This document shows positions 34,414 to 48,749 of a DNA stretch of 64,000 nucleotides, piece after piece; position 1 is the stretch's first letter; every line of letters starts with the position of its first letter. The notes beneath the pieces are model-generated. The model had not been told where the DNA came from, did not search any database, and saw only the letters and a program-made list of their open reading frames with translations. Made by a program: the position numbers and the translations under genes. The DNA comes from Lentimicrobium sp. (GTDB taxonomy: Bacteria > Bacteroidota > Bacteroidia > Bacteroidales > Lentimicrobiaceae), in assembly GCA_019429275.1 (NCBI GenBank), contig JAHYJC010000008.1, forward strand, positions 1 through 64,000, in the 5' to 3' direction.

Positions 34414-35271
34414 TCAGAATTCCCAGAGGTTATGTTCGAAATTAAACAGATCAGCTTTTATGCGTTCTGCTTCCATAAGGGCATCAACACCTGTTGCATA
34501 GTCCGAAATCCTTCTATCGTATACGTTGTCTTCCTTGTAGATATAGCTGGCAAACATTCTTTTCCAGAAGATATCATCATAGGTTTTACGTGCTGCGCTG
34601 TTATGTCGGTTAAAAACTTCGGCCTTGGCAAAAACCGGACGGGCTTCGGGGAAATATATCCAGAAAAGCGGATCGTAACCCCTGAAAATCCCCTTCTCGT
34701 CCATATTGTCGCGTACGGGACAAATTCCAAGAATCCTGACTTCCATAACCGAACGCTGCTTATCGAAGAACCAGTCTTCTTTTATCCTGAACCTTTTAAC
34801 ATCAGAAGGATTGAATTTCACAGAAATTATGGTATCATACCAGTCGTAAGGCGGGTAAGGTCTCTGCATGGTAGCAGAATCGCTTCTTTCGAGGCGGTTC
34901 ATAATTTCCGAATAGGTCAGAGGAACCAGAAATTCATCGGTAGTACTGGAAGCATCATATGCCGTGATGGCACCTTCCTTGAGTGCATCGAGCACAACCT
35001 GGGTAAGGCTTCTGAGATCGTTATGAGGAACCTCGGGATAATAAAACGGTTGATTCAGTTTCTCACGAAGATCAATTACACGCCAGATTCTTTTGCGCCA
35101 GACCACATCTGCCTCACGAACCCATGGATAAGTAATGGGTTTCTTTTCGAGAGTGGCGGTTTTATCATAAACACCATCGCGTGGAGGACTGTCGAGCACC
35201 TGAGCTTCAGAGGTTTTAGCAATACTGGACATTATTAATGCCAGTACAATGTAACCCAATAATTTTTTCAT
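34414..35271 (-). CDS. gldN: Type IX secretion / gliding motility protein GldN (PorN)
   Basis: A 285-residue periplasmic protein with a Sec signal peptide (about 1-23). Family knowledge: GldN/PorN joins GldK/PorK in the ring below the outer membrane and contacts GldM. It has the family-typical AITAYDASSTTDEFLVPLTYSE and the later KEDWFFDKQRSVMEVRILGICPV and DPLFWIYFPEARP. Last gene of the porP-gldK-gldL-gldM-gldN block, 122 bp after gldM and followed by an intrinsic terminator. Confidence 0.93.
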   Translation of the reverse strand: MKKLLGYIVLALIMSSIAKTSEAQVLDSPPRDGVYDKTATLEKKPITYPWVREADVVWRKRIWRVIDLREKLNQPFYYPEVPHNDLRSLTQVVLDALKEGAITAYDASSTTDEFLVPLTYSEIMNRLERSDSATMQRPYPPYDWYDTIISVKFNPSDVKRFRIKEDWFFDKQRSVMEVRILGICPVRDNMDEKGIFRGYDPLFWIYFPEARPVFAKAEVFNRHNSAARKTYDDIFWKRMFASYIYKEDNVYDRRISDYATGVDALMEAERIKADLFNFEHNLWEF

Positions 35272-35393
35272 CCGTTTACTTGCTTATTTTTAATTTTCTG
35301 AGGCGGATACAGGCTAAACATTTTTTTAAACTTCAGAGGGTTTAGAATTAAAGCCGTCTATGTTTCTTTAGCCTGAACGCAGTCAGTTGATAA

Positions 35394-36950
35394 TTATTGT
35401 ACTATAAGGCTGATGGTTCCTAACCTGCGGTTTCCATCCGGACCTTTTGCCAAAATATTCTCAAGCCATATTCTTTCGCCACGTTTCGAGTTGGAAATAA
35501 AATTCTGCATTTCCTGTGTCAGCATATTACCGTTACCAGGATACTGAATTATATCACCGCCTCGGATTCCAACAAAAGTATAGGAAACGATTTCAAAGCT
35601 CAGGTCAAAATCAAAATCATCGGGCATACGCGGAATAATTGCACGGGCAGCCAGTAACATATTTTTCTGAACCGGTCCTCCATCGGTATTGGCAATGTAT
35701 GCTTTGGGGTCTGGAACACGCTTGATTCTGAATTCTGCCGAACCCATTTTCCTTGATGTCTTACCATCGTTGTGAACTACCGAAATGGTGGCTTTATCGC
35801 CCAATGGCACTCTTACTACCCAGCCTTTGCCATCGCGGCGGACAGTGCCGGAAGTTATGGTTGGCTGAATCTGAGCTTCGGGAATACCCGAGGCAGAGAT
35901 GGAAATAGGATTATCGACATTAGCGTAAAAAACATTCATTTTGGTTGCAGCAACAGAAAGAGAAGGTGTCATAACAAAATAACTCTCTTCAAAGGAATAA
36001 TCTTTTGGCTCTCCATCGGGGCCAATTACTTTTATTGTTCCACGGTAGGTCTGAAGGCCTATTGCGCCGGCACTTGCAGTATATTTTGCAATACCACCGG
36101 ATGCGGGTATCTGCCTTCCGCCGATAAATACCTCTGGATTCTGCTTAGAGTCCAATGCAGCAACCATAATCTCAGCTTCGTAGGTATCGCCCTGGAATAC
36201 CAGTTTTGAATTAGGAATAACTTTTGGGGCTACCTGATCGAACTTATAATCATCGGCCGAAATAGAACTGTAAAGTGAAGTAACAATATCACTTTCTACG
36301 TTTCTTACATCAGCAATGAGTTTATTCAAAAAGGTAACATTAGCAGCGAGAATGACATGATAAAAGTTATGCTGCTCCCAGTTTTGTTTTTTGCCGCTGG
36401 CATCATAAAACGGACCTTCCAGATCCATTCCAATCTTTAGACTGCCCCTTTTGTTTTCATCGACCAGATTTAATACACTGGCTTTAAACTTTTCGATTTC
36501 TTTCCTTAACTCTCCTGCTTTACCTCTGGATCCATCCGGAGAACCCAGAAAAAAATAATTTGTTGAAACATCGTACTTATCGCGGGATTTAATTTTTCCA
36601 AGAGGAGTTTCACGAGCTTCCTCAATGGTTATTTTCTCTGATTTAGAAATCACTTCGTATTTAACGCCATCAATATATTTGATGATGTCATTTGAAAGTT
36701 GCCTGGCTTCCTGAGCTTTTTCCCAGAAAGGTCCGACTTTGGCTTCATTCAGCAGATGTTGCTGTTCAAATCTTGCATAGCTTTCTTCAATTTTTGATTG
36801 AAGGTTTTCGTTTGTATTGACAATACTATTATTCACCGAAACAAAAGCCTCAATAATCTCAACCGAAACGTTAAGGGCAAGCAGCGCAGTCAACACCAGG
36901 TACATCATCGCGATCATCTTTTGCCGCGGTGTCTCCTTGTATCCAGCCAT
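35394..36950 (-). CDS. gldM: Type IX secretion / gliding motor protein GldM (PorM)
   Basis: A 518-residue inner-membrane protein with one N-terminal transmembrane helix (about 12-35, MIAMMYLVLTALLALNVS) and a long periplasmic part. In the family, GldM dimers form a shaft that spans the periplasm and couples the GldL motor to the outer-membrane ring. The start MAGYKETPRQKMI is conserved. Later motifs include DLEGPFYDASGKKQNWEQH and KVIPNSKLVFQGDTYEAE. It follows gldL by 44 bp. Confidence 0.94.
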   Translation of the reverse strand: MAGYKETPRQKMIAMMYLVLTALLALNVSVEIIEAFVSVNNSIVNTNENLQSKIEESYARFEQQHLLNEAKVGPFWEKAQEARQLSNDIIKYIDGVKYEVISKSEKITIEEARETPLGKIKSRDKYDVSTNYFFLGSPDGSRGKAGELRKEIEKFKASVLNLVDENKRGSLKIGMDLEGPFYDASGKKQNWEQHNFYHVILAANVTFLNKLIADVRNVESDIVTSLYSSISADDYKFDQVAPKVIPNSKLVFQGDTYEAEIMVAALDSKQNPEVFIGGRQIPASGGIAKYTASAGAIGLQTYRGTIKVIGPDGEPKDYSFEESYFVMTPSLSVAATKMNVFYANVDNPISISASGIPEAQIQPTITSGTVRRDGKGWVVRVPLGDKATISVVHNDGKTSRKMGSAEFRIKRVPDPKAYIANTDGGPVQKNMLLAARAIIPRMPDDFDFDLSFEIVSYTFVGIRGGDIIQYPGNGNMLTQEMQNFISNSKRGERIWLENILAKGPDGNRRLGTISLIVQ

Positions 36951-36994
36951 ATTATTATTTTAATGTAATGTTATAGATTCAGTTTAAATTTGCC

Positions 36995-37843
36995 TTATCT
37001 CACGTTCATTGCAGCAAGCATGTTGCCATAAACGTTGTTGAGAGCAGCAACCTTCTTGGTTAAGGCATCAAGTTCCTGCCTGTACTTGCCCATATCTTCA
37101 CTTGAACTGTTGATATTGGCAAGATATTGCGAGATACCGGTATGCAGTTTATTAGTATCTTCAAGGTGTGCATTGGAAGTTTTCAGCTGAAGTTCGTAAA
37201 CACTATTTAGGGCAGCAAGATTGTTGCCGATTTTTTGCAGCTGCTCACTGTATGTCCTGTTGTCAAGTCCTGAAAAATCAAATTTTTCAACCGACTTAGC
37301 CAATGATTGAGCTGTTTGCTGATAGGCTGAAGCCAGTTGTCCGGTTGACTCGTTGGCTTTGGCAACATTGAGTGAAAGCTCATTTACTGATTTTGCAGCA
37401 TTGCTCAGGTTTCGGGTATATTCGTTGGTAGCAACGGCTGCACTCGAAAGGTCTGACATTTTGCTTGCATTTTCGCTGAGGCTTCGAAGTCCTGCTCCAA
37501 GGCTCTGTATCAATTCAGGACCTATTTTGGCTTTTTCAAGCATATTATCAAGCTCCTGAGTTGGGGTTTTGCCTGATTTAGGACTCTCACCACCGCCATG
37601 ATACATGCCTGCAAGTTCCGGGTAAACCAAACTCCAGTCAGGCTCAACGTGTGGAGGTTCAAAAGCAGAAAAGAAGAAAATGAGGGCTTCAGTTCCCAAA
37701 CCGACGATAAGCATTTCGTTGGCACCTGTATAGTGATTGATTTTAAAAAGTGCTCCAAGAATAACCACAGCAGCGCCCCATCCATATAGTTTGGCCATAA
37801 AGTTCCTGAATGCTTTCCCTCTGACTAAATTATTCAATCCCAT
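36995..37843 (-). CDS. gldL: Type IX secretion / gliding motor protein GldL (PorL)
   Basis: A 282-residue inner-membrane protein with two N-terminal transmembrane helices (about 19-38 and 43-62) and a long cytoplasmic coiled coil. Family knowledge: GldL with GldM is the proton-driven rotary motor. Lys34 in GALFKINH and Glu52 in GLGTEALIF align with the key Lys27 and Glu49 of the Flavobacterium johnsoniae protein, with a shorter loop between the helices. The cytoplasmic tail is longer than in F. johnsoniae and closer in length to PorL. It lies 75 bp after gldK. Confidence 0.94.
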   Translation of the reverse strand: MGLNNLVRGKAFRNFMAKLYGWGAAVVILGALFKINHYTGANEMLIVGLGTEALIFFFSAFEPPHVEPDWSLVYPELAGMYHGGGESPKSGKTPTQELDNMLEKAKIGPELIQSLGAGLRSLSENASKMSDLSSAAVATNEYTRNLSNAAKSVNELSLNVAKANESTGQLASAYQQTAQSLAKSVEKFDFSGLDNRTYSEQLQKIGNNLAALNSVYELQLKTSNAHLEDTNKLHTGISQYLANINSSSEDMGKYRQELDALTKKVAALNNVYGNMLAAMNVR

Positions 37844-37918
37844 GATAGTAAAGTGTTAATTGTTGAGTGATGAAAAGTTTGTTATTAATCTCGGATTAAT
37901 ATAAAAAACAAGTCCGTT

Positions 37919-39274
37919 TTAGTTATAAATTTTTGATGCTCTGGCCGGATTATCATCTTTTTGACGACCCATATAATTCTGAACACAACGGAAACCGATA
38001 TAAGATTTGGCTGTATCCTGAAATTCATAGGCACGTGAATTAACCTGCAGGTAATAGGAAATATCCTTCCATGAACCACCACGAACAACTTTTCTTTTCA
38101 AAGCAGGTGGATCACTGTCCTTGGCATTGTAACTGTAGGCAGGATTCATGTCCCAGGTAAAATGGTAAGCACTCTCATCGTATGCATCGTTGGTCCATTC
38201 AGCAACATTACCTGACATATCATACAATCCGAAATCGTTGGCGGGATAATGGGCAACAATTACCGGAGTAAGGCCTCCATCATCAACATAGTTACCACGT
38301 AAAGGTTTGAAGTTGGCAAGAAAACATCCATGGTCGTTGCGGGTGTAAGGGCCACCCCAGGGATAGGGACTAAAAGAATTGCCACCACGAGCAGCCCATT
38401 CCCATTCAGCTTCAGTTGGAAGCCTGAATTCATTCACCAAAGCATTGCCTTTGCTACTGAGGTAGGCACGCAACAACTCTGTTCGCCAGATGCTGAATGC
38501 TTTGGCCTGTTTCCAGTTTACACCAACAACCGGATAATTATCATAAGCCGGATGCCAGAAGTAGCGTTCGGTCATAGGATCGTTGTAGGAATAGGCATAA
38601 TCATGAATCCACGCAAGTGTATCAGGGTAAACGTTGATTATTTCTTTTCTGACGTAGAGTGAGCGGTCTTTCAATCCCTGTGGACGATTGGCAAGCCCTG
38701 CATTAACCGGATCTCCTCCTGAATAGTCTTTTCCGGCTGCTGCTTTAAAGTCAACCCAGTAATATTCGTAAAAAAGTTTACGGGTGTCTATCTCTTTGCG
38801 ACGGAAATAACGTTCGTGCTCTGGCAGGAACATATCTTCAAGTGCTTCGCGCTCTTCTTCTCCATTCCATTTGATATCAGTTTTCCAATTAAGAAACGGT
38901 GGATCGTAGGTTTCACCTGTTTTTTTGTTCTCTTCAACCAGATAATTCTCTGGTTTTACCTCTCCAAGTTTGCGGCGGGCGATAGAATCTCTGACCCAAA
39001 AAACGAATTGGCGGTATTCATTATTGGTAATTTCTGTTTCATCCATATAGAAAGCACTCACCGAAACTGTCCGCGGATCATTTATGTGCGCATAGGGAAC
39101 ATCCTGATCCCCAACACCCATGGTAAAACTTCCCATTGGTATGTAGGCCATCCCAAATGGATCGGGCTGATAAAATTTTTCACGCTTTGATACACCAACG
39201 AGTTCGCCATTTCCTGAATTTCCACAGCTACTCAGGATTAGGGCAGCAATGATGTAGTTGAAGAGTCTTTTCAT
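37919..39274 (-). CDS. gldK: Type IX secretion / gliding lipoprotein GldK (PorK)
   Basis: A 451-residue outer-membrane lipoprotein with lipobox LILSSC (Cys17). The fold is of the formylglycine-generating enzyme/sulfatase-modifying factor type, with YIPMGSFTMGVGDQDVPYAH near the N-terminus and LPTEAEWEWAARGG, YDMSGNVAEWTNDAYD and VRGGSWKD toward the C-terminus. In GldK/PorK the fold is structural, forming the periplasmic ring with GldN. Second gene of the operon, after porP. Confidence 0.94.
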   Translation of the reverse strand: MKRLFNYIIAALILSSCGNSGNGELVGVSKREKFYQPDPFGMAYIPMGSFTMGVGDQDVPYAHINDPRTVSVSAFYMDETEITNNEYRQFVFWVRDSIARRKLGEVKPENYLVEENKKTGETYDPPFLNWKTDIKWNGEEEREALEDMFLPEHERYFRRKEIDTRKLFYEYYWVDFKAAAGKDYSGGDPVNAGLANRPQGLKDRSLYVRKEIINVYPDTLAWIHDYAYSYNDPMTERYFWHPAYDNYPVVGVNWKQAKAFSIWRTELLRAYLSSKGNALVNEFRLPTEAEWEWAARGGNSFSPYPWGGPYTRNDHGCFLANFKPLRGNYVDDGGLTPVIVAHYPANDFGLYDMSGNVAEWTNDAYDESAYHFTWDMNPAYSYNAKDSDPPALKRKVVRGGSWKDISYYLQVNSRAYEFQDTAKSYIGFRCVQNYMGRQKDDNPARASKIYN

Positions 39275-39389
39275 GTTTGTTCCTGATTTTAATGCAAATA
39301 ACGGCTGTTAGATCTAATTATTATTTAATCCTCCGTTTTTTTAGAACGACAAAAATAACAATATAATTTCTTTCACGACAAATTTATTA

Positions 39390-40346
39390 TTACAGGAATC
39401 GTGTATTCCTGAAACTTCTTCTGGTTTTTTCAAGTTCAAGTTTAAAGCTGTAAACCACCATGATTTCATGGCTACCTGCGCCTCCTATCTTAGAAAGAGG
39501 GATGTCATAAGCATAACCAAAACTCAAATCTTTCACACTCATGCCAACCATAACTGCAACAGTTTCCTGAAAACGATAAGTCAGCCCGCCCCAAAATTTA
39601 TCATTATAAAGAAGGCGTGCATTCAAATCTACCTGAGCGGCTGCTCCATCATATTTTGCGAAAACTCCAGGTATAAAAACATAGGCCGGATTTCTGATCC
39701 AGGAGATGCGGTAACCTGCAGTGGCGTAATAGTGCCTACGCAGCTTAAACTCCGAACCTCCGGTTCCGAGTTGCCTGGAACCTTCAAGCAATTGTGTGGC
39801 TGATAGTCCCAAATACAGCCCATCAGGCTGAATATAAAAAGCACCAAAGGCCATATCTGTAAACATTGTGCTTTCTTGTCCTGATTTGATAATCGGATCA
39901 TCATCTACCGGCTTTAGCTTCCCATAATCCAGTGATTTATTCAGAAAGCCAACATTAAAGCCAATACCTAATTCTCCATCGCCCAATGACCGGTTATAAG
40001 CATAACCAAGCCGCACATAAATATCTTTGAAATAGCCGATTTTATCCTGCATTACTGTAGCTGAAACACCTCCTCTGAGAATTCTGACAGGCGCATCTCC
40101 TGAAACCACAAAGCTTTCAGGAGAAACTTTATTTCCTTCTGAGTCTTCAATTCCAATCCATTGCTGACGCATAAGTCCGGTCACTGTTATGGCATCGCGC
40201 AGACCAGCATAACCTGGATTTACAGCCATGTGATTAAACATATTCAGCGTGAACTGTGGCTCTTGCTGTGCAATTGCTTGTTTACCTGAAATTATAATCA
40301 TGGCAACAAGCCCCAGACCGAAATAAATCAGCTCAATCCTTCGCAT
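39390..40346 (-). CDS. porP: PorP/SprF-family type IX secretion outer-membrane protein
   Basis: A 318-residue outer-membrane beta-barrel protein with a signal peptide from MRRIELIYFGLG to about AIAQ. The open frame reaches 40382; the ATG at 40346 is preferred because it begins the signal peptide. The PorP/SprF family signature is clear: QPQFTLNMFNHMAVNPGYAGLRDAITVTG-like sequence (here QEPQFTLNMFNHMAVNPGYAG), RQQWIG, and the end FGYAYDIPLSKIG. PorP helps anchor or secrete T9SS products. First gene before gldK, the order known from Porphyromonas (porPKLMN). Confidence 0.92.
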   Translation of the reverse strand: MRRIELIYFGLGLVAMIIISGKQAIAQQEPQFTLNMFNHMAVNPGYAGLRDAITVTGLMRQQWIGIEDSEGNKVSPESFVVSGDAPVRILRGGVSATVMQDKIGYFKDIYVRLGYAYNRSLGDGELGIGFNVGFLNKSLDYGKLKPVDDDPIIKSGQESTMFTDMAFGAFYIQPDGLYLGLSATQLLEGSRQLGTGGSEFKLRRHYYATAGYRISWIRNPAYVFIPGVFAKYDGAAAQVDLNARLLYNDKFWGGLTYRFQETVAVMVGMSVKDLSFGYAYDIPLSKIGGAGSHEIMVVYSFKLELEKTRRSFRNTRFL

Positions 40347-40382
40347 AGAACCTGTTTTGCAAAAACTCAATTTAAAACTCAT

Positions 40383-40751: not shown

Positions 40752-41678
40752 ATGACTTTTGTTCAAAATGAAAAAGTTTTTACAAAAAAATGGTTCATTG
40801 CATATTCATTGATCATTGTGGGCTCCTTTATTCTGGCAGCTGGATTTGTTTTTTTTATTAACCCTTACAACATTGTTCCCGGCGGTGTTTATGGAATCGG
40901 AATCGTTGTTCACCATCTGACAAAAGGTGTTTTTTCTTTCTGGCCGACCGGTATCCCTGTCGGACTTTTCGGACTGGTATTGAACATTCCACTGACTATG
41001 ATAGGAATAAAGGTATTGGGACCTAGATTTGGTATAAAAACCGTGATTGGCTTCTTACTAACCTCAGTTTTTATGGATATGCTGACGATGTTCGTTGGTG
41101 AAAATGACCCTTTAGGCCTTTCGGAAGACATTCTCATGGCTTGTGTTTTTGGCGGAGTGCTCATAGGTTTCGGGCTGGGACTCATTTTTAAATCCAGGGC
41201 CACATCAGGCGGTTCAGACATTGTGGCAATGATTATTGCAAAATACACAAAGCTTCCATTGGGACAGTTAATGATATATGTAGATTCAGTTATTGTACTT
41301 TTTGGACTGGTTGTTTTTAAAGATTGGAAAATCCCCCTCTATTCCTGGATTGTTATATTTATCACCGGAAAAGTCATTGATATTACAATGCAGGGCGTTA
41401 GCTATGAAAAAACCTTATTTATTATTTCGAAAGAATTTGAACTTATCCGCGACAAAATCATCAACGATCTTAACCGTGGGGGAACCTTTATACCTGGAAA
41501 AGGGATGTTCAACAATTCTGATAAAACGATTATTTTTACCATAATGAACCGCCGGGAAATTGCAATTCTTGAGGAATACATCCATCAAATAGACCCAAAA
41601 GCCTTTGTTACTGTTATGGATGCCAACGAAATTCTGGGCGAAGGTTTTAAATCACTTCGCGATAAAGTTTCAGAATAA
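40752..41678 (+). CDS. YitT-family membrane protein, first copy
   Basis: A 308-residue inner-membrane protein with about six hydrophobic segments in the first 210 residues, then a cytoplasmic DUF2179 domain (EKTLFIISKEFELIRDKIINDLNRGGTF). Family motifs include NPYNIVPGGVYGIGIV and FKSRATSGGSDIVAMII. Proteins of this family are widespread; transport is suspected but the substrate is unknown. A second copy begins 52 bp downstream. Confidence 0.88.
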   Translation: MTFVQNEKVFTKKWFIAYSLIIVGSFILAAGFVFFINPYNIVPGGVYGIGIVVHHLTKGVFSFWPTGIPVGLFGLVLNIPLTMIGIKVLGPRFGIKTVIGFLLTSVFMDMLTMFVGENDPLGLSEDILMACVFGGVLIGFGLGLIFKSRATSGGSDIVAMIIAKYTKLPLGQLMIYVDSVIVLFGLVVFKDWKIPLYSWIVIFITGKVIDITMQGVSYEKTLFIISKEFELIRDKIINDLNRGGTFIPGKGMFNNSDKTIIFTIMNRREIAILEEYIHQIDPKAFVTVMDANEILGEGFKSLRDKVSE

Positions 41679-41730
41679 AATTTGCCGACCAACAAATTTT
41701 AATGCATCCATCCATTTAGCCAGCTAAACG

Positions 41731-42624
41731 ATGCCATTTCTTCAGAAAGAAAAAATTTTTACCCGAAAATGGTTCATTTCTTATGGATTAATCCTGACTG
41801 GTACTTTGCTTGTCTCCTTTGGTTATGTCTATTTTATTACACCTTTCAAAGTAGTACCAGGTGGAATATATGGTATTTCTATAGTGTTGCACCATCTCTT
41901 CGGCTTACCGGTTGGTCTCACTGCTCTGGCCTTCAACATACCCCTTACCATAATCGGGACTAAGGTACTGGGGCCCAGATTTGGCACAAAAACAGTTGCC
42001 GGCTTCGTTCTGACTTCTGTTTTTGTTGACCTGATGTCTTTCTTTTCCGGATTTAAACCTCTGGTTGAAAACGACCCCTTGCTTTCATCAATATTTGGAG
42101 GAGCTGTAATTGGCGTAGGTGTAGGACTTATTTTTAAATCCAAAGCTACTTCGGGCGGATCTGATGTAATTGCTATGATATTGGCACGCTCTACAAAATT
42201 ACCGCTGGGACAGTTGATGATTGGCGTTGATTCATTAATTGTGCTGATAGGATTTGTTGCTTTCAGAGACTGGCACATTCCGCTTTACTCCTGGATTACA
42301 ATTTTTGTGATGGGTAAGGTAATTGATGCAGTGTTGCAGGGCGTTTCCTACGAAAAAACAATTTTTATTGTTTCTGATCAGCATCAGGCTATCCGCGATA
42401 AAATCATCAATGACCTTCACAGAGGCGGAACATACCTGAATGCTGAAGGTATGTTTAATGGCAATCAGAAAAAGGTGATCTTCACCGTTGTAAATCGCAG
42501 GGAACTGGCTATGCTTGAAGAATTTATCAATAAGGTTGATCCTAAAGCTTTTCTTACCGTCATGGATGCCAACGAAATTCTCGGTAAAGGTTTTAAATCG
42601 CTGACCGACAAACTGGAAGATTAA
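41731..42624 (+). CDS. YitT-family membrane protein, second copy
   Basis: A 297-residue paralogue of the upstream gene, with the same topology and matching motifs (TPFKVVPGGIYGIS, FKSKATSGGSDVIAMIL, YEKTIFIVSDQHQAIRDKI, and the end TVMDANEILGKGFKSL). High similarity over the whole length points to a tandem duplication. The two may form a hetero-oligomer or have diverged in substrate; the sequence does not decide. Followed by the cobalamin riboswitch region. Confidence 0.88.
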   Translation: MPFLQKEKIFTRKWFISYGLILTGTLLVSFGYVYFITPFKVVPGGIYGISIVLHHLFGLPVGLTALAFNIPLTIIGTKVLGPRFGTKTVAGFVLTSVFVDLMSFFSGFKPLVENDPLLSSIFGGAVIGVGVGLIFKSKATSGGSDVIAMILARSTKLPLGQLMIGVDSLIVLIGFVAFRDWHIPLYSWITIFVMGKVIDAVLQGVSYEKTIFIVSDQHQAIRDKIINDLHRGGTYLNAEGMFNGNQKKVIFTVVNRRELAMLEEFINKVDPKAFLTVMDANEILGKGFKSLTDKLED

Positions 42625-43023: not shown

Positions 43024-43575
43024 ATGAAAAACAAAAAGATCATCCTTCCATTTTTTGTTATTACAATTATTATCTCTTTACTTGCCATAAGCCGGCTTTT
43101 GCCACACCCATTCAACTTTTCACCCATTGCAGCTCTGGCTTTGTTTGGCGGTGCACACTACCGAAACCGATTTGCAGCCTATCTTATACCGCTGGCAGCA
43201 TTATGGGTAAGCGATATTTTTCTGAATTTTGCCTTCTTCGGAAGTTTTGTTCCCTTTTATGAAGGCGCATTTTTTACTTATGCCGCTTTCGCTTTGATTG
43301 TTTTGCTGGGATCAAAGGCACTGCAAAAGTTCTCGACCAGAAACCTTTTGTTTTCAAGCCTTGCAGCTTCAGTAATTTTCTTTGTGGTTTCAAACTTCGG
43401 TGTCTGGGTTTCAGGAACCTTGTACCCGCTTAATGCAACCGGGCTTGTCGCCTGCTACTCAGCAGCCATCCCGTTCTTCCGCAACACCCTTGCCGGTGAC
43501 CTGATTTATTCATTTGCAGTCTTTTATGGATATGCATATGCACAATCGAGAATTTCAATCCTCAAAACCGCTTGA
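43024..43575 (+). CDS. Membrane protein, DUF6580 / ECF S-component-like, likely in cobalamin uptake
   Basis: A 183-residue inner-membrane protein with about six hydrophobic segments. It begins with a helix (IILPFFVITIIISLLAISRLL), then HPFNFSPIAALALFGGAHY, which resembles the N-terminal part of ECF-type substrate-binding membrane proteins, and later FFVVSNFGVWVSGTLYP and RNTLAGDLIYSFAVFYGYA. It is the first gene under the cobalamin riboswitch, which implies a role in cobalamin or cobalt/precursor transport. No ECF ATPase or T component is adjacent. The family name is recognised with moderate certainty; the substrate is inferred only from context. Confidence 0.75.
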   Translation: MKNKKIILPFFVITIIISLLAISRLLPHPFNFSPIAALALFGGAHYRNRFAAYLIPLAALWVSDIFLNFAFFGSFVPFYEGAFFTYAAFALIVLLGSKALQKFSTRNLLFSSLAASVIFFVVSNFGVWVSGTLYPLNATGLVACYSAAIPFFRNTLAGDLIYSFAVFYGYAYAQSRISILKTA

Positions 43576-43628: not shown

Positions 43629-45584
43629 ATGATCAAAAAATTACTTGCACTTTTACTGATTAGCGGATACACCTCTGTATTTGCGCAGGGACAGTTTCCT
43701 CCGGCAGCCGGCCAAACAGGAAGCACCGCCATTGCCAGAGATTCCAGCATCATTCAATCATGGGCCAGCGGAACTGAGCTGGTGCGCGGATACATACAGA
43801 TAAGCGATACCAGTGTTTACAGCTCAGGTTCCAACAAAGCTACATTCGGGCATCCATCCAACGCTTTGGGCATTGCTGAAGGCATTTCAACCGAAGTTGT
43901 TAGTCTGGGAGATGGCGGAATGGCAACGCTGACTTTCGATCGGCTGGTTGTTAACGGCCCCGGTGCTGATTTTGCGGTATTTGAAAATTCTTTCGGCGAT
44001 ACTTTTCTTGAACTTGCGTTTGTAGAGGTGAGCTCCGACGGCATCAACTTCAGCCGGTTCCCGTCCGTTTCCCTCACACAATCTGAGACTCAGATTGGTC
44101 CATGGGATGAGATTGATCCGACCCAGCTTCATAACCTTGCCGGAAAATACCGCCAGGGTTTCGGAACTCCATTCGACCTGAGCGATCTTGAATACAATCC
44201 ACTGGTTGACGTAAATGCAATCAGGTTTGTTCGGATTATTGATGTGGTCGGCAGCATCAACCCTGAATACGCAAGCATTGATTCCCAAGGAAATATCATA
44301 AACGACCCCTACCCTACACCATTCAATTCAGGAGGTTTTGATCTTGACGGTGTTGCCGTAATTAACTGCAACGTACCAAATACAGTTCTTAATTTCACCG
44401 AACTTCCACTGACCCAAAATTCATTTTTCCTGCCCGAAGAAAATGGCATGTTTTCATCCGGACCCTTAAACTTCATTTATGAAGCCGGATTTGGCTCATG
44501 GTCAGGTTTTTCATATTCAAACAGGGTAAGCCTTACCGGCGAATATACCAACGATCAGTTTGTGGCGGCAACCCTCGGCGGCATGGACGGAGATACCACA
44601 AATTTTGCAATATCTTATGTTTCATCCGACTGGATGTCAGGAACCTACGATCCGATTCCCAGCATAATAAATGTGGCCAATGGTCAGGATGTAAGCTTCA
44701 GCGGATTTTACGCAACCAACAGCCATATGGCTTATATCACTTTGCGTGATGGCACAATGTTTAACAAAAAATTCGGTGGTGTAACCGGCAACGACCCCGA
44801 TTGGTTCAGAATGAAAGTTTGGGGCGTTCGCGCTGATAATTCACTTACAGAAATTGTGGAGCATTACCTTGCTGATTTTCGTTTTGAAGATAACGGCCTT
44901 GACTACATTCAAAACGATTGGCGCTGGGTTGACCTGAGCAGCCTGGGTGAAGTAAAATCACTGAACTTTATTCTTGAATCAAGCGATTCGGGTGATTACG
45001 GGATGAATACCCCGGCTTATTTCTGCATGGATAACCTGACCATAATGGAAGTTCAGGGACCATTTATCGCGAATCCATTGGCCGACATGGTGGTGAGCGT
45101 AAATGCCGACCCAATCGACATCAATCTGGACAACCATTTTGCAGCATCCGGAGTAAACCCAACCTACGAAATTTCAAACAACAGCAACAGCAGTCTGGTT
45201 CTGGCAAGCATTACCGATTCGCAGCTTTCACTGATATTTGCATTGAATCAGACAGGTTCATCGGAAATAACAATCACTTCAACAGCCAATGGATTAGCAG
45301 TATCTGACACATTTATTGTAACGGTCAGCTCAAATGTTGGCATCGATCAAGTCGAAAAAATCATGTTAAAAACCTATCCGAACCCAGTGGTTCACAGCCT
45401 GACGCTGGAAGGCGCGAAAGACAGTGAAATGAAGATTTTTAACTCAACCGGAAGTCTGGTATTTGCCGGAAAAAGCACGGACGAAAAAACCATTTTGCCT
45501 ATGGATACCTATCCTGCAGGGATTTATCTGATTCAGGTTTCAGGCATGAATGGAAATTCAACCATCAAGGTTAGCAAGAAATAA
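43629..45584 (+). CDS. Two-module T9SS surface protein with DUF4465 domain, cobalamin-regulated
   Basis: A 651-residue secreted protein with a signal peptide from MIKKLLALLL to FAQ; the frame is open to 43572, overlapping the previous gene, but the ATG at 43629 starts the signal peptide. Module 1 (about 20-250) contains LGDGGMATLTFDRLVV, GPGADFAVFENSFGDTFLEL, EVSSDGINFSRFP, LAGKYRQGFGTPFDLSDL and SGGFDLDGVAVIN, a beta-sandwich family seen in surface proteins of several phyla. Module 2 (about 255-485) is a DUF4465 domain (FWRMKVWG-like region DWFRMKVWGVRADN and WRWVDLSSLGEVKSLNF). The last ~80 residues are a T9SS type A sorting domain (LKTYPNPVVHSLTLEG). DUF4465 proteins in B12 loci of gut Bacteroides (BtuH group) bind cobalamin at the cell surface as lipoproteins; from memory of that work I infer a similar role here. 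Confidence 0.8.
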   Translation: MIKKLLALLLISGYTSVFAQGQFPPAAGQTGSTAIARDSSIIQSWASGTELVRGYIQISDTSVYSSGSNKATFGHPSNALGIAEGISTEVVSLGDGGMATLTFDRLVVNGPGADFAVFENSFGDTFLELAFVEVSSDGINFSRFPSVSLTQSETQIGPWDEIDPTQLHNLAGKYRQGFGTPFDLSDLEYNPLVDVNAIRFVRIIDVVGSINPEYASIDSQGNIINDPYPTPFNSGGFDLDGVAVINCNVPNTVLNFTELPLTQNSFFLPEENGMFSSGPLNFIYEAGFGSWSGFSYSNRVSLTGEYTNDQFVAATLGGMDGDTTNFAISYVSSDWMSGTYDPIPSIINVANGQDVSFSGFYATNSHMAYITLRDGTMFNKKFGGVTGNDPDWFRMKVWGVRADNSLTEIVEHYLADFRFEDNGLDYIQNDWRWVDLSSLGEVKSLNFILESSDSGDYGMNTPAYFCMDNLTIMEVQGPFIANPLADMVVSVNADPIDINLDNHFAASGVNPTYEISNNSNSSLVLASITDSQLSLIFALNQTGSSEITITSTANGLAVSDTFIVTVSSNVGIDQVEKIMLKTYPNPVVHSLTLEGAKDSEMKIFNSTGSLVFAGKSTDEKTILPMDTYPAGIYLIQVSGMNGNSTIKVSKK

Positions 45585-45621: not shown

Positions 45622-47610
45622 ATGAAATCACTTGCGATAACCGGCTTATTAATTGGCTTCTGCTTTTCAGATGTTATTGCCCAGCAGCCGATTACCGACA
45701 CCATTACTATAAAAGGTGTAGAGGTGAAAACACGCAAAATTCATCAGAAAGAGAAGTCAGCATACCCGATACAAAGTCTTGCGGCAAAAGGAATTGAGTC
45801 CGTCGCGGGTACTTCGGTTGCCGAAGCCGTAAAGACTTTTTCGGGAGTAACCCTGCGCGATTACGGTGGTACAGGCGGGCTGAAAACCATCATGGTACGA
45901 AGCCTGGGCGCAAATCATACAGGAGTTTTTATCGATGGAGTTGCTTTTACTGACATAGCTTCAGGGCAGGTTGATCTGAGTAAACTTCCGCTTGAAGGGC
46001 TTGAAGAAGTTTCGCTCGAACTTGGAAATGCTTCACAACAATGTATTACTGCGCGTGCTCAGGCATCGGCAAGCCTGATCAACCTCAGAAGTAAAAACCC
46101 TGATTTCAGGAATCGCAAAACAAATGGCAATCTTTCACTGAAAGCGGGAATGTATGGACTGATTAATCCCACGCTTTCGCTGAACCAGAAAACCGGCAAA
46201 AAATCATGGATAGGGCTGAACCTGAATTACCTGCGGGCAGAAAGTGACTATCCGTATCTTGTGGATAACGGCCCGGCCGGCACACATCGCGAAACACGAA
46301 GTAATTCAGATATTACAGCACTTTCGGCAAACGCAGTTTACAATTTCAGTCCATCGGACAGTTCCGGTTTTCAGGCAAGGCTCAGAATTTATGAATCGGA
46401 ACGGGGTTTGCCGGGAGCCGTAATTTTTTATAATCCACATTCATCGCAACGTTTGACCAACAAAGATATGAGTGTGAACCTGCAATACCGTTCTAATAAA
46501 AAGAAAATCTCAACGCTGAGCAATGCGGGCTGGTCCAGGGCATGGCTTCGCTATGTTGATCCTGATTATCTGGGATATACGAGCAGCCTCGACAACAAAT
46601 ACCTTCAGCAGGAATACTACCTTTCGCAGGCATTTAGTGCTAAAACCGGGAAACATTTTACTGCATCTGCATCTACAGATCTGATTGTAAGTTCATTTTC
46701 ATCAAACCTATACAACAATAGTAACCCCAGGCGCTATAGTCTGCTGGTGTCAGGCGGATTGAGCCACCGCACGCGAACCACCGAAACTTCAGCCGGTTTG
46801 CTGCTCAGTGTGGTTGGCGATAAAAAAGATGGCGATGAAAAGATGAAAGACTTTTCACGGATTTCGCCATGGGCTAACTTCACAGTTCGGATAACAGATG
46901 ATCCGGCATTAAGATTCAGATTAATGTATAAGCAGATTTTCAGGTTGCCGAGCTTCAACGATTTGTATTACCATCTTGTTGGAAATCCAAGCCTGAAACC
47001 GGAAAATGCCGGACAAATCAATTCAGGTCTGCTTTTTTCGAAAAAAGTGATGGGTTCGACAGATGTAAACCTGCGAATTGATGCTTTTGGCAATCGCGTA
47101 AGCAACAAAATAATCGCAATACCTTCACAAAACCTGTTTGTTTGGTCGATGCGTAACATCGGGAAGGTGAGCACGCAGGGCATTGAATTACAGATAGAAA
47201 CCGAAAGCAAAATCAATGCTGAAATGTCAATCGGCATCAGCATGAACTACACCTATCAGCAAGCCCTTGACATGACTGACCAAAACTCAGCCAGTTATAA
47301 ACATCAGATTCCATACATTCCCTACGAAACATTTTCAGGAATGTATTTTATCAATTACCGGTCGTTTGCAGTAAATTACAATCTGTTGTTCAACGGATTC
47401 CGCTTTTCAGCCGGTGAAAATGTGCATGAAAACCTGCTTCCGGGTTGGTGGATCAGCGATGCCGGACTTTCATGGAAAACCGAAACAAACAGAATCACCT
47501 ACAGAATAAAAGGAGAAATAAGCAATCTCTTTAACAGGGAGTATGTTGTTATAAGGAGCTTTCCCATGCCTGGAAGAAGTTTTGCATTAACCGCCACCTT
47601 ACAATTTTGA
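45622..47610 (+). CDS. btuB: TonB-dependent receptor, BtuB-like
   Basis: A 662-residue outer-membrane receptor with a signal peptide (about 1-20), a likely TonB box near DTITIKGVEV, a plug domain (VAEAVKTFSGVTLRDYGG, IMVRSLGANHTGVFIDG) and a beta barrel ending in the terminal aromatic pattern ALTATLQF. It lacks the N-terminal carboxypeptidase-like domain of SusC proteins, and its ~660 residue length fits cobalamin/siderophore receptors. The BtuB call rests on its place in a riboswitch-controlled operon with DUF4465 and beta-propeller partners. Another corrinoid or metal complex remains possible. Confidence 0.85.
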   Translation: MKSLAITGLLIGFCFSDVIAQQPITDTITIKGVEVKTRKIHQKEKSAYPIQSLAAKGIESVAGTSVAEAVKTFSGVTLRDYGGTGGLKTIMVRSLGANHTGVFIDGVAFTDIASGQVDLSKLPLEGLEEVSLELGNASQQCITARAQASASLINLRSKNPDFRNRKTNGNLSLKAGMYGLINPTLSLNQKTGKKSWIGLNLNYLRAESDYPYLVDNGPAGTHRETRSNSDITALSANAVYNFSPSDSSGFQARLRIYESERGLPGAVIFYNPHSSQRLTNKDMSVNLQYRSNKKKISTLSNAGWSRAWLRYVDPDYLGYTSSLDNKYLQQEYYLSQAFSAKTGKHFTASASTDLIVSSFSSNLYNNSNPRRYSLLVSGGLSHRTRTTETSAGLLLSVVGDKKDGDEKMKDFSRISPWANFTVRITDDPALRFRLMYKQIFRLPSFNDLYYHLVGNPSLKPENAGQINSGLLFSKKVMGSTDVNLRIDAFGNRVSNKIIAIPSQNLFVWSMRNIGKVSTQGIELQIETESKINAEMSIGISMNYTYQQALDMTDQNSASYKHQIPYIPYETFSGMYFINYRSFAVNYNLLFNGFRFSAGENVHENLLPGWWISDAGLSWKTETNRITYRIKGEISNLFNREYVVIRSFPMPGRSFALTATLQF

Positions 47611-47675
47611 AAATGACCCATCCGAAAATATATCAGGTTGCTTTCGCAAAAAGCATATTTCAGTCACTTCGGAAC

Positions 47676-48749
47676 ATGAAGTGGATATTACTTTTCGGAA
47701 CAACACTACTTACAACTTCATGTAAAAAAGAGCCTTCAACACCCGAAATAAATCCAGCCGATTCAACAATTCGGACAACAGGCATTTTTGTTTTGAACGA
47801 AGGAGTTTTCAATGCCAACAATGCATCGCTTACCCGATTCAGCTTCAGCGATTCAACAGCAGAAACAGATTATTTCTTCAATAAAAACGGGCGGAAACTA
47901 GGCGATACCGGGAGCGACCTGGGAATTTACGGATCCAAAATGTATATAGTTGTAAATGTTTCAAGTCAGGTAGAGGTCGTGGATGCACTCACTTGCCTCA
48001 GTCTGAAACAGATACCTATGTTTGATGGCAACAAACCAAGGCAGCCGAGAAAAATTGCTTTTTACGGGAATCATGCATTTGTATGCAATTTTGATGGAAC
48101 TGTTGCTGTAATTGACACGACCAAACTTGAAACAGTGAAATTTATTCAGGGAGGCCGGAATCCGGATGGCATAACTGCTGCATATGGAAAAATATGGGTA
48201 ACCAACTCCGGTGGGCTTGGATTTCCGGATTACGACAATACCGTTTCGGTAATTGATCCGATAACTTTGAGTGAGATAAAAAAGCTTGAGTCAGGCATAA
48301 ATCCTTACACCATACATCCCGATAATCATGGCAACATCTTCCTGATTGCACGTGGGAACTATGGTGACATCAAGAGCCGGCTTCAGGTAATGGATGCCAC
48401 TTCCGGAGAAATGAAACATACATTCACGGACTTTGAAGCGCTCAATTTTATAATTTCGGGCGACTCGGCCTTTGTATATAATTACAATTGGAACGCAGGT
48501 ACAAGCAGCATAAGGGTAATAAATACCGTAACACTTGAAGTGGCAAACAATGCATTTATAAGCGATGGAACTGTGATTGAATCGGTTTATGGAATAGCTG
48601 CAGATCCTTTTACAGGAATAATCTACATCACAGATGCCGGAAATTTCACAGGCAGGGGAAAAGTACATGCCTTCTCCAAAAGCGGGAAAAAACTGTATTC
48701 GTTTGATGCAGGGATCAATCCGTCGGGAATTGTATTTGCGAATAAATAA
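47676..48749 (+). CDS. Beta-propeller surface lipoprotein, BtuG-like
   Basis: A 357-residue lipoprotein with a signal peptide from MKWILLFGTTLL and lipobox TTSC (Cys15), followed by KKE, which could act as a surface-export signal. The frame is open upstream to a TTG at 47607, but the signal peptide supports the ATG at 47676. The body is a YncE/DUF5074-type propeller: repeated blades such as VVNVSSQVEVVDALT, AFVCNFDGTVAVIDTTKL, GKIWVTNSGGLGFPDYDNTVSVIDP and YGIAADPFTGIIYITDAG. In gut Bacteroides, BtuG is a surface propeller that binds B12 very tightly and hands it to BtuB. Same operon position here makes that role likely; direct binding residues cannot be read. Confidence 0.85.
   Translation: MKWILLFGTTLLTTSCKKEPSTPEINPADSTIRTTGIFVLNEGVFNANNASLTRFSFSDSTAETDYFFNKNGRKLGDTGSDLGIYGSKMYIVVNVSSQVEVVDALTCLSLKQIPMFDGNKPRQPRKIAFYGNHAFVCNFDGTVAVIDTTKLETVKFIQGGRNPDGITAAYGKIWVTNSGGLGFPDYDNTVSVIDPITLSEIKKLESGINPYTIHPDNHGNIFLIARGNYGDIKSRLQVMDATSGEMKHTFTDFEALNFIISGDSAFVYNYNWNAGTSSIRVINTVTLEVANNAFISDGTVIESVYGIAADPFTGIIYITDAGNFTGRGKVHAFSKSGKKLYSFDAGINPSGIVFANK

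Follow-up and report, generated by a model that had tools for sequence, protein, structure and literature searches.

Results

A riboswitch-led operon with the outer parts of a B12 uptake system

The window, a stretch of 64,000 nucleotides of a Lentimicrobium sp. assembly (GCA_019429275.1, contig JAHYJC010000008.1, positions 1 to 64,000, forward strand), contains a cobalamin riboswitch aptamer and, downstream of it, an intact 183-residue ORF of the Pfam family DUF6580 that heads a run of B12 uptake genes with BtuJ-like, BtuB1-like, and BtuG-like products (Table 1). The aptamer match (gathering score 31.5; cmscan of the window) covers positions 1-189 of 189 and is the only cobalamin riboswitch found in the assembly. 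The first-pass annotation had described a small membrane protein directly under a cobalamin riboswitch, first in its operon and without ECF or BtuCDF partners nearby, and this description holds: the ORF starts 132 bases after the aptamer on the same strand, it leads the BtuJ-like, BtuB, BtuG-like series, and a Pfam scan of the seven genes between 40752 and 50801 shows neither an ECF nor a BtuCDF gene. A terminator-like hairpin seen by eye after the aptamer was discarded, its fold being no better than that of shuffled sequences (z -0.80) and the hairpin being unlisted in the scan.

Table 1. Features of the riboswitch-led operon (positions refer to the window)
Feature	Position	Strand	Evidence or remark
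Cobalamin riboswitch aptamer, RF00174	42705-42891	+	cmscan, 103.7 bits
DUF6580 protein, 183 aa	43024-43575	+	Pfam PF20221; predicted solitary S-component-like corrinoid importer
Codon of Cys144, sole cysteine of the DUF6580 protein, outer loop 5	43453-43455	+	Alignment
T9SS-sorted DUF4465 protein, BtuJ-like, probable corrinoid binder	43629-45584	+	Pfam DUF4465, 1e-45; Por_Secre_tail
BtuB-type TonB-dependent corrinoid receptor	45622-47610	+	PDB 8blw_A (BtuB1), E 2e-119
BtuG-like surface beta-propeller, DUF5074	47607-48749	+	PDB 8blw_B, E 1.1e-74; Pfam DUF5074

The DUF4465 protein also matches the DUF4465 chain 9qpm of the PDB (1.3e-18) and carries MNTPAY at residues 459-464; BtuJ1 and BtuJ2, of the same family, are described in PMC12751083 as binding cobalamin, with the binding motif MNTPSY. 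The receptor additionally matches the NCBIfam model TonB-B12 at 2.6e-27, under that model's cut-off, and the chain matched by the propeller, 8blw_B, is annotated in the PDB as a YncE family protein solved with BtuB1, which we read as BtuG1. The arrangement thus recalls the BtuB-BtuG-BtuFCD system of Bacteroides thetaiotaomicron, as presented in PMC12751083: counterparts of BtuB1, of the propeller that pairs with it, and of BtuJ (DUF4465) lie under a cobalamin riboswitch. BtuF and BtuC, by contrast, were not found in the Lentimicrobium genome, and the operon has DUF6580 in their place. Because Bacteroides-type outer parts are present and BtuFCD is not, the locus appears as an outer B12 uptake set without an inner pump. 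Two tandem YitT/DUF2179 membrane proteins (40752-42624) lie immediately before the riboswitch, and a type IX secretion cluster (GldN, GldM, GldL, GldK, PorP/SprF) occupies the minus strand upstream of the operon at 34414-40382; the second gene of the operon carries a T9SS tail. A group II intron match of 44.9 bits is located at 36-125, close to the window edge.

Searches for known inner-membrane routes in the genome

Searches of the assembly (4.19 Mb in 108 contigs and 96.5% complete, so that absences from it are not proof) gave no match to EcfT (CbiQ, PF02361), BtuF (Peripla_BP_2, PF01497), SbmA/BacA, or GATase_3 (CobB/CobQ), and no FecCD (BtuC) match over the cut-off; these searches represented the ECF module by EcfT and BtuCDF by BtuF and BtuC, and a mycobacterial-type BacA (PMC10960864) would be a further route. 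The single FecCD match below the cut-off was ruled out as BtuC, since it is an ABC-3 permease next to an ABC ATPase. The first-pass annotation had called for such a genome-wide check and had counted a complete BtuCDF system under the same signal elsewhere as evidence against its proposal; no such system was found in this assembly. Among relatives of the window protein, L002, L003, and L004 have 95, 66, and 67% identity, respectively; FecCD reaches 1.6e-5 in the genome of L002, below the cut-off, and 3.4e-6 in that of L003, just above it and over positions 102-302 only, and gives no hit in that of L004. The assembly encodes two proteins with a B12-binding domain over the cut-off and two more below it, the former two being, on our reading of their sequences, probably a methylmalonyl-CoA mutase and an IcmF-like fused mutase.

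The DUF6580 family

The 183-residue protein matches DUF6580 with 174.8 bits against a cut-off of 27. Pfam assigns no function to this family, and our literature search returned no paper using the name "DUF6580", with no title or abstract among the matches listed naming the protein. We take the NCBI label for such proteins to be "DUF6580 family putative transport protein". In a family alignment of 137 rows (134 distinct sequences, the window protein being present twice), Arg24 is kept in 135 rows and Asp64 in 136, Tyr86 is found in 130 of the 137, and His28 in 108. The column of Cys144, in L5, holds a cysteine in 111 rows and another residue or a gap in the remaining 26. The helix-1 AxxxA motif, which according to PMC11109136 serves docking on EcfT, occurs in 22 of the 137 rows and is missing from the window protein; of 45 family members, two gave weak matches to the Pfam family ECF_trnsprt, the better one at 2.6e-4.

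Cys144 might be a cobalt ligand. A requirement for it was rejected on two counts, namely that a riboswitch also precedes 6 of 25 survey genes that lack it (versus 22 of 63 that have it) and that alanine takes its place in four of the six DUF6580 proteins of gammaproteobacterial riboswitch loci (L239, L257, L259, and L276), the cysteine being kept in the other two (L289 and L290). The same genome carries a second DUF6580 gene (G000:C27:4398-4895, L129), with alanine at the Cys144 position; the 12.9 kb of sequence retrieved with it shows no cobalamin riboswitch, and another intron piece lies at the edge of that contig (L129:1-47).

Predicted fold and comparison with BtuM

A six-helix protein resembling an S-component had been guessed from the sequence in the first-pass annotation, which had also suggested a structural comparison with CbrT and BtuM. 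An AlphaFold (AF2) model, computed from the window protein aligned with 44 relatives from L002-L048, has a mean pLDDT of 94.8 and a pTM of 0.89 and shows six long helices and, in the last outer loop, an additional short helix (residues 138-147). With VIA-align, BtuM came first (8ovv, Z 14.6; 8c7p, Z 14.5), at or slightly above the Z of ~13 or 14 that helical models can reach without a clear relative, followed by FolT, RibU, BioY, ThiT, and other S-components (Z 13.9-9.4); MreD gave Z 8.7 and CbrT Z 7.7. We take the best 20 VIA-align rows (Z 14.6 to 9.4), in part from their titles, to be S-components throughout. Foldseek against the PDB listed BtuM, ThiT, and RibU in its best seven rows (E 0.1 to 0.46, probability 0.89-1.00), with no row at E 0.001 or better. 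The model therefore supports an S-component fold for the DUF6580 protein and, with it, the earlier guess; a shared fold by itself shows no function.

Conserved residues are found where helices 1 and 5 end, where helix 4 begins, and within helix 3 and loop 5. Because both ends of the modelled chain are on the same side of the membrane and the loops there are positively charged, these residues are predicted to face the periplasm.

BtuM is described in PMC6072759 as an importer working without an ECF module; that study tested it by growth of E. coli deprived of BtuFCD and reliant on B12 import, a host described there as having no ECF module. The resemblance of DUF6580 to the Thiobacillus denitrificans protein (8c7p, 8ovv) extends beyond the six-helix S-component fold (Z 14.6): both are of ~180-200 residues, both are found beside cobalamin riboswitches, and both occur in genomes without an ECF module (for DUF6580, no PF02361 match here and 77 of 81 genomes in the survey below). 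At the sequence level, HMMER profiles of DUF6580 (45-row and 88-row) found no match up to E 10 among PDB sequences. In hhalign, the 88-row profile gave a full-length alignment of 164 columns with eight BtuM sequences (E 1.2e-4, probability 54.6), and the 45-row profile one of 168 columns (E 0.0016, probability 15.8), these E-values being those of single comparisons; a CobS control of seven rows aligned over 22 and 16 columns only (probability 0.1). The BtuM set was a protein cluster from gammaproteobacterial riboswitch loci matching PDB 8c7p at 6.6e-19. The alignment pairs Arg24 and Asp64 of DUF6580 with the invariant Arg24 and Asp66 of the set (BtuM from L262) and leaves the histidines of DUF6580 (His28) and BtuM unpaired. 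PMC6072759 reports His28, Asp67, Tyr85, and Arg153 as conserved and mutated in BtuM (Asp67 in the T. denitrificans protein) and gives as the hallmark of the family a cobalt-ligating cysteine that is invariant in L3. That cysteine (Cys80) sets the two families apart: in the DUF6580 alignment, the L3 columns are free of cysteine in all 137 rows, and most rows carry Cys144 in L5 instead. Because the defining L3 cysteine is absent, we do not file DUF6580 as BtuM; on present evidence, we favour that it works like BtuM, of which it is perhaps a distant relative.

Riboswitch linkage

Among 88 DUF6580 genes surveyed in 198 Bacteroidota genomes, 28, that of the window included, are preceded on their own strand by a cobalamin riboswitch at no more than 6 kb (nhmmer search from 31 riboswitches), when fewer than 2 would be expected by chance even at nine riboswitches per genome, the maximum seen, in a 1.6-Mb genome (our arithmetic). 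A BtuB-cluster gene lies within three genes of 24 of these 28; BtuB without a riboswitch is seen for two further genes, and the other 58 are near neither a riboswitch nor a BtuB-cluster gene. Family f23 contributes 23 of its 26 genes to these 58, and families f21, f22, f24, f28, and f32 contribute all of theirs. The 58 genes suggest either that the members do not all share one role or that the gene is often unlinked, and some DUF6580 members may move another substrate. In the 49 loci L002-L050, a riboswitch was found within 8 kb upstream in 9, elsewhere in the locus in 4, and nowhere in 36.

The reverse comparison started from riboswitches. In the class of the gammaproteobacterial genome G233, 185 genomes were searched and 131 had a match; 60 loci were taken from the best-scoring ones, one per genome, a few lower-scoring or contig-end loci being passed over. 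These 60 hold BtuM in 10 cases, FecCD/BtuC in 9, DUF6580 in 6 (the riboswitch being confirmed by Rfam in all six), and none of the three in 35. Twenty Bacteroidota loci, half of the 40 planned, hold DUF6580 in 4, FecCD/BtuC in 3, and none in 13; these were hand-picked at one to three per family and include the window and three known DUF6580 loci, so that only the 60 are unbiased in this respect. Across all 80 loci, DUF6580 (10), BtuM (10), and FecCD/BtuC (12) never occur two together, and 48 loci have none. For the 60 alone, ~3.4 overlaps would be expected under independence (our arithmetic) and none is seen, so that mutual exclusion in this set is suggestive only. Gene position varies, with one of the 10 DUF6580 genes (L296) on the opposite strand and several FecCD genes upstream of the riboswitch.

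Exchange with FecCD permeases across genomes

The same 198 Bacteroidota genomes were searched for DUF6580, FecCD, and CbiQ. DUF6580 exceeds its cut-off in 81 genomes, one match below the cut-off (G062) being uncounted, and a strong FecCD match, defined as a best E of 1.2e-63 or better, occurs in 130; 12 genomes with weak matches only did not count as strong, namely that of the window and 11 others (best E 2.5e-5 to 1.2e-14), the latter excluded without inspection. On this basis, 67 genomes have DUF6580 only, 116 strong FecCD only, 14 both, and 1 neither (Fisher's p 1.7e-37, kinship ignored). DUF6580 and strong FecCD thus replace each other across this sample of the phylum, with strong FecCD also present in 14 of the 81 DUF6580 genomes. 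The pattern recurs at the level of the 40 families, the majority state being DUF6580 only in 19, FecCD only in 20, both in one (f35), and neither in none. Because families f2 and f23 each contain DUF6580-only and FecCD-only genomes, the swap has probably taken place more than once. In the 49 genomes behind L002-L050, mostly metagenome-assembled genomes of unknown completeness and with at least two also in the survey of 198, strong FecCD is present in 12 and absent from 37. As FecCD proteins also move siderophores and haem, their presence alone does not amount to B12 transport, a caution also expressed in PMC2667541. EcfT is encoded in 52 of the 198 genomes, of which 4 have DUF6580, leaving 77 of the 81 DUF6580 genomes without it.

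Discussion

Our bioinformatics analyses suggest that the DUF6580 protein quite probably carries out the inner-membrane step of corrinoid uptake without an ATPase module, in the manner of BtuM but as a separate family. Corrinoid would be caught at the surface by the BtuJ-like and BtuG-like proteins, pass into the periplasm via BtuB, and be bound by DUF6580 in a periplasm-facing pocket whose walls are formed by conserved residues from helices 1 and 3 and from the outer loops. The protein would then turn or topple, releasing its cargo inside, where adenosylation and binding to B12-dependent mutases may pull the equilibrium inward, and plentiful corrinoid would lower expression of the operon through the riboswitch. 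The first-pass annotation had left it undecided whether the protein acts alone or shares a module encoded elsewhere. The second option is disfavoured because the genome has no EcfT match, the protein lacks AxxxA, and most DUF6580 genomes are without EcfT; from gene content and motifs, we favour that it acts alone. The missing helix-1 motif favours transport without an ECF module.

Other roles can be envisaged for a riboswitch-controlled protein of this fold. S-components carry many small vitamins, and uptake of alpha-ribazole by a protein of S-component type is known for CblT; the riboswitch would equally control a gene for import of a B12-related small molecule, be it cobalt or a precursor of the lower ligand (alpha-ribazole, for example), with another protein carrying the corrinoid. 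We consider this unlikely, since DUF6580 exchanges with FecCD/BtuC and with BtuM, its nearest solved fold is BtuM, the next genes of the operon resemble binders and importers of whole corrinoids, and the genome is without a GATase_3 match. Less probable still is a true ECF S-component borrowing an ECF-like motor encoded elsewhere, which could be a divergent EcfT or an ABC ATPase of classical type: the fold, the few weak ECF_trnsprt matches, and the four DUF6580 genomes with EcfT would fit such an arrangement, but the EcfT counts and the missing AxxxA motif speak against it. A corrinoid sensor or an accessory membrane protein that transports nothing seems just as improbable as a borrowed motor. 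PMC11109136 also places the S-component fold in receptors, and MreD shares it at Z 8.7, yet the 183 residues include no added signalling domain, and an accessory protein would hardly be expected to exchange with permeases.

The DUF6580 protein differs from the ECF-CbrT system (PDB 6fnp; PMC5997447), with which it has the S-component fold in common and, for DUF6580 by prediction only, the cobalamin substrate: CbrT scores only Z 7.7 against the model, the window's genome has no EcfT match, and solitary CbrT is reported in PMC5997447 to give no growth without the ECF module. Among solitary B12 importers that resemble S-components, BtuM is the known precedent, and DUF6580 is widely distributed. 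How solitary S-components transport without an ECF module is still unclear according to PMC11109136, and a second such family, if confirmed, would offer a new handle on the process. A study cited in PMC8123684 predicts B12 synthesis in few members of the phylum (0.6%), and a strong FecCD permease is missing from 68 of the 198 survey genomes; identifying the last uptake step in FecCD-less genomes would put B12 predictions right for a large number of them.

We lean, by a narrower measure than for the window protein itself, towards a broader reading in which DUF6580 proteins form an unnamed and widespread group of one-protein corrinoid importers, taking the place of BtuCDF in roughly half the families sampled in the phylum and in some gammaproteobacteria, as a sister of BtuM in which cobalt contact is solved differently, through a cysteine of loop 5 or through none, and handing their cargo in some genomes to a cytosolic BtuF-like neighbour. 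The gene after DUF6580 is BtuF-like in 13 of the 137 loci (e.g. L168:8704-9637), some of them in gammaproteobacterial metagenome-assembled genomes, with PF01497 confirmed for two of the 13. These neighbours seem, from their sequences, to start at the mature domain without a signal peptide and could act as receivers in the genomes that have one, the window genome being without PF01497. DUF71 relatives lie within three genes of DUF6580 in 11 loci, the one checked being Diphthami_syn_2; their family is predicted in PMC3541065 to act in B12 salvage.
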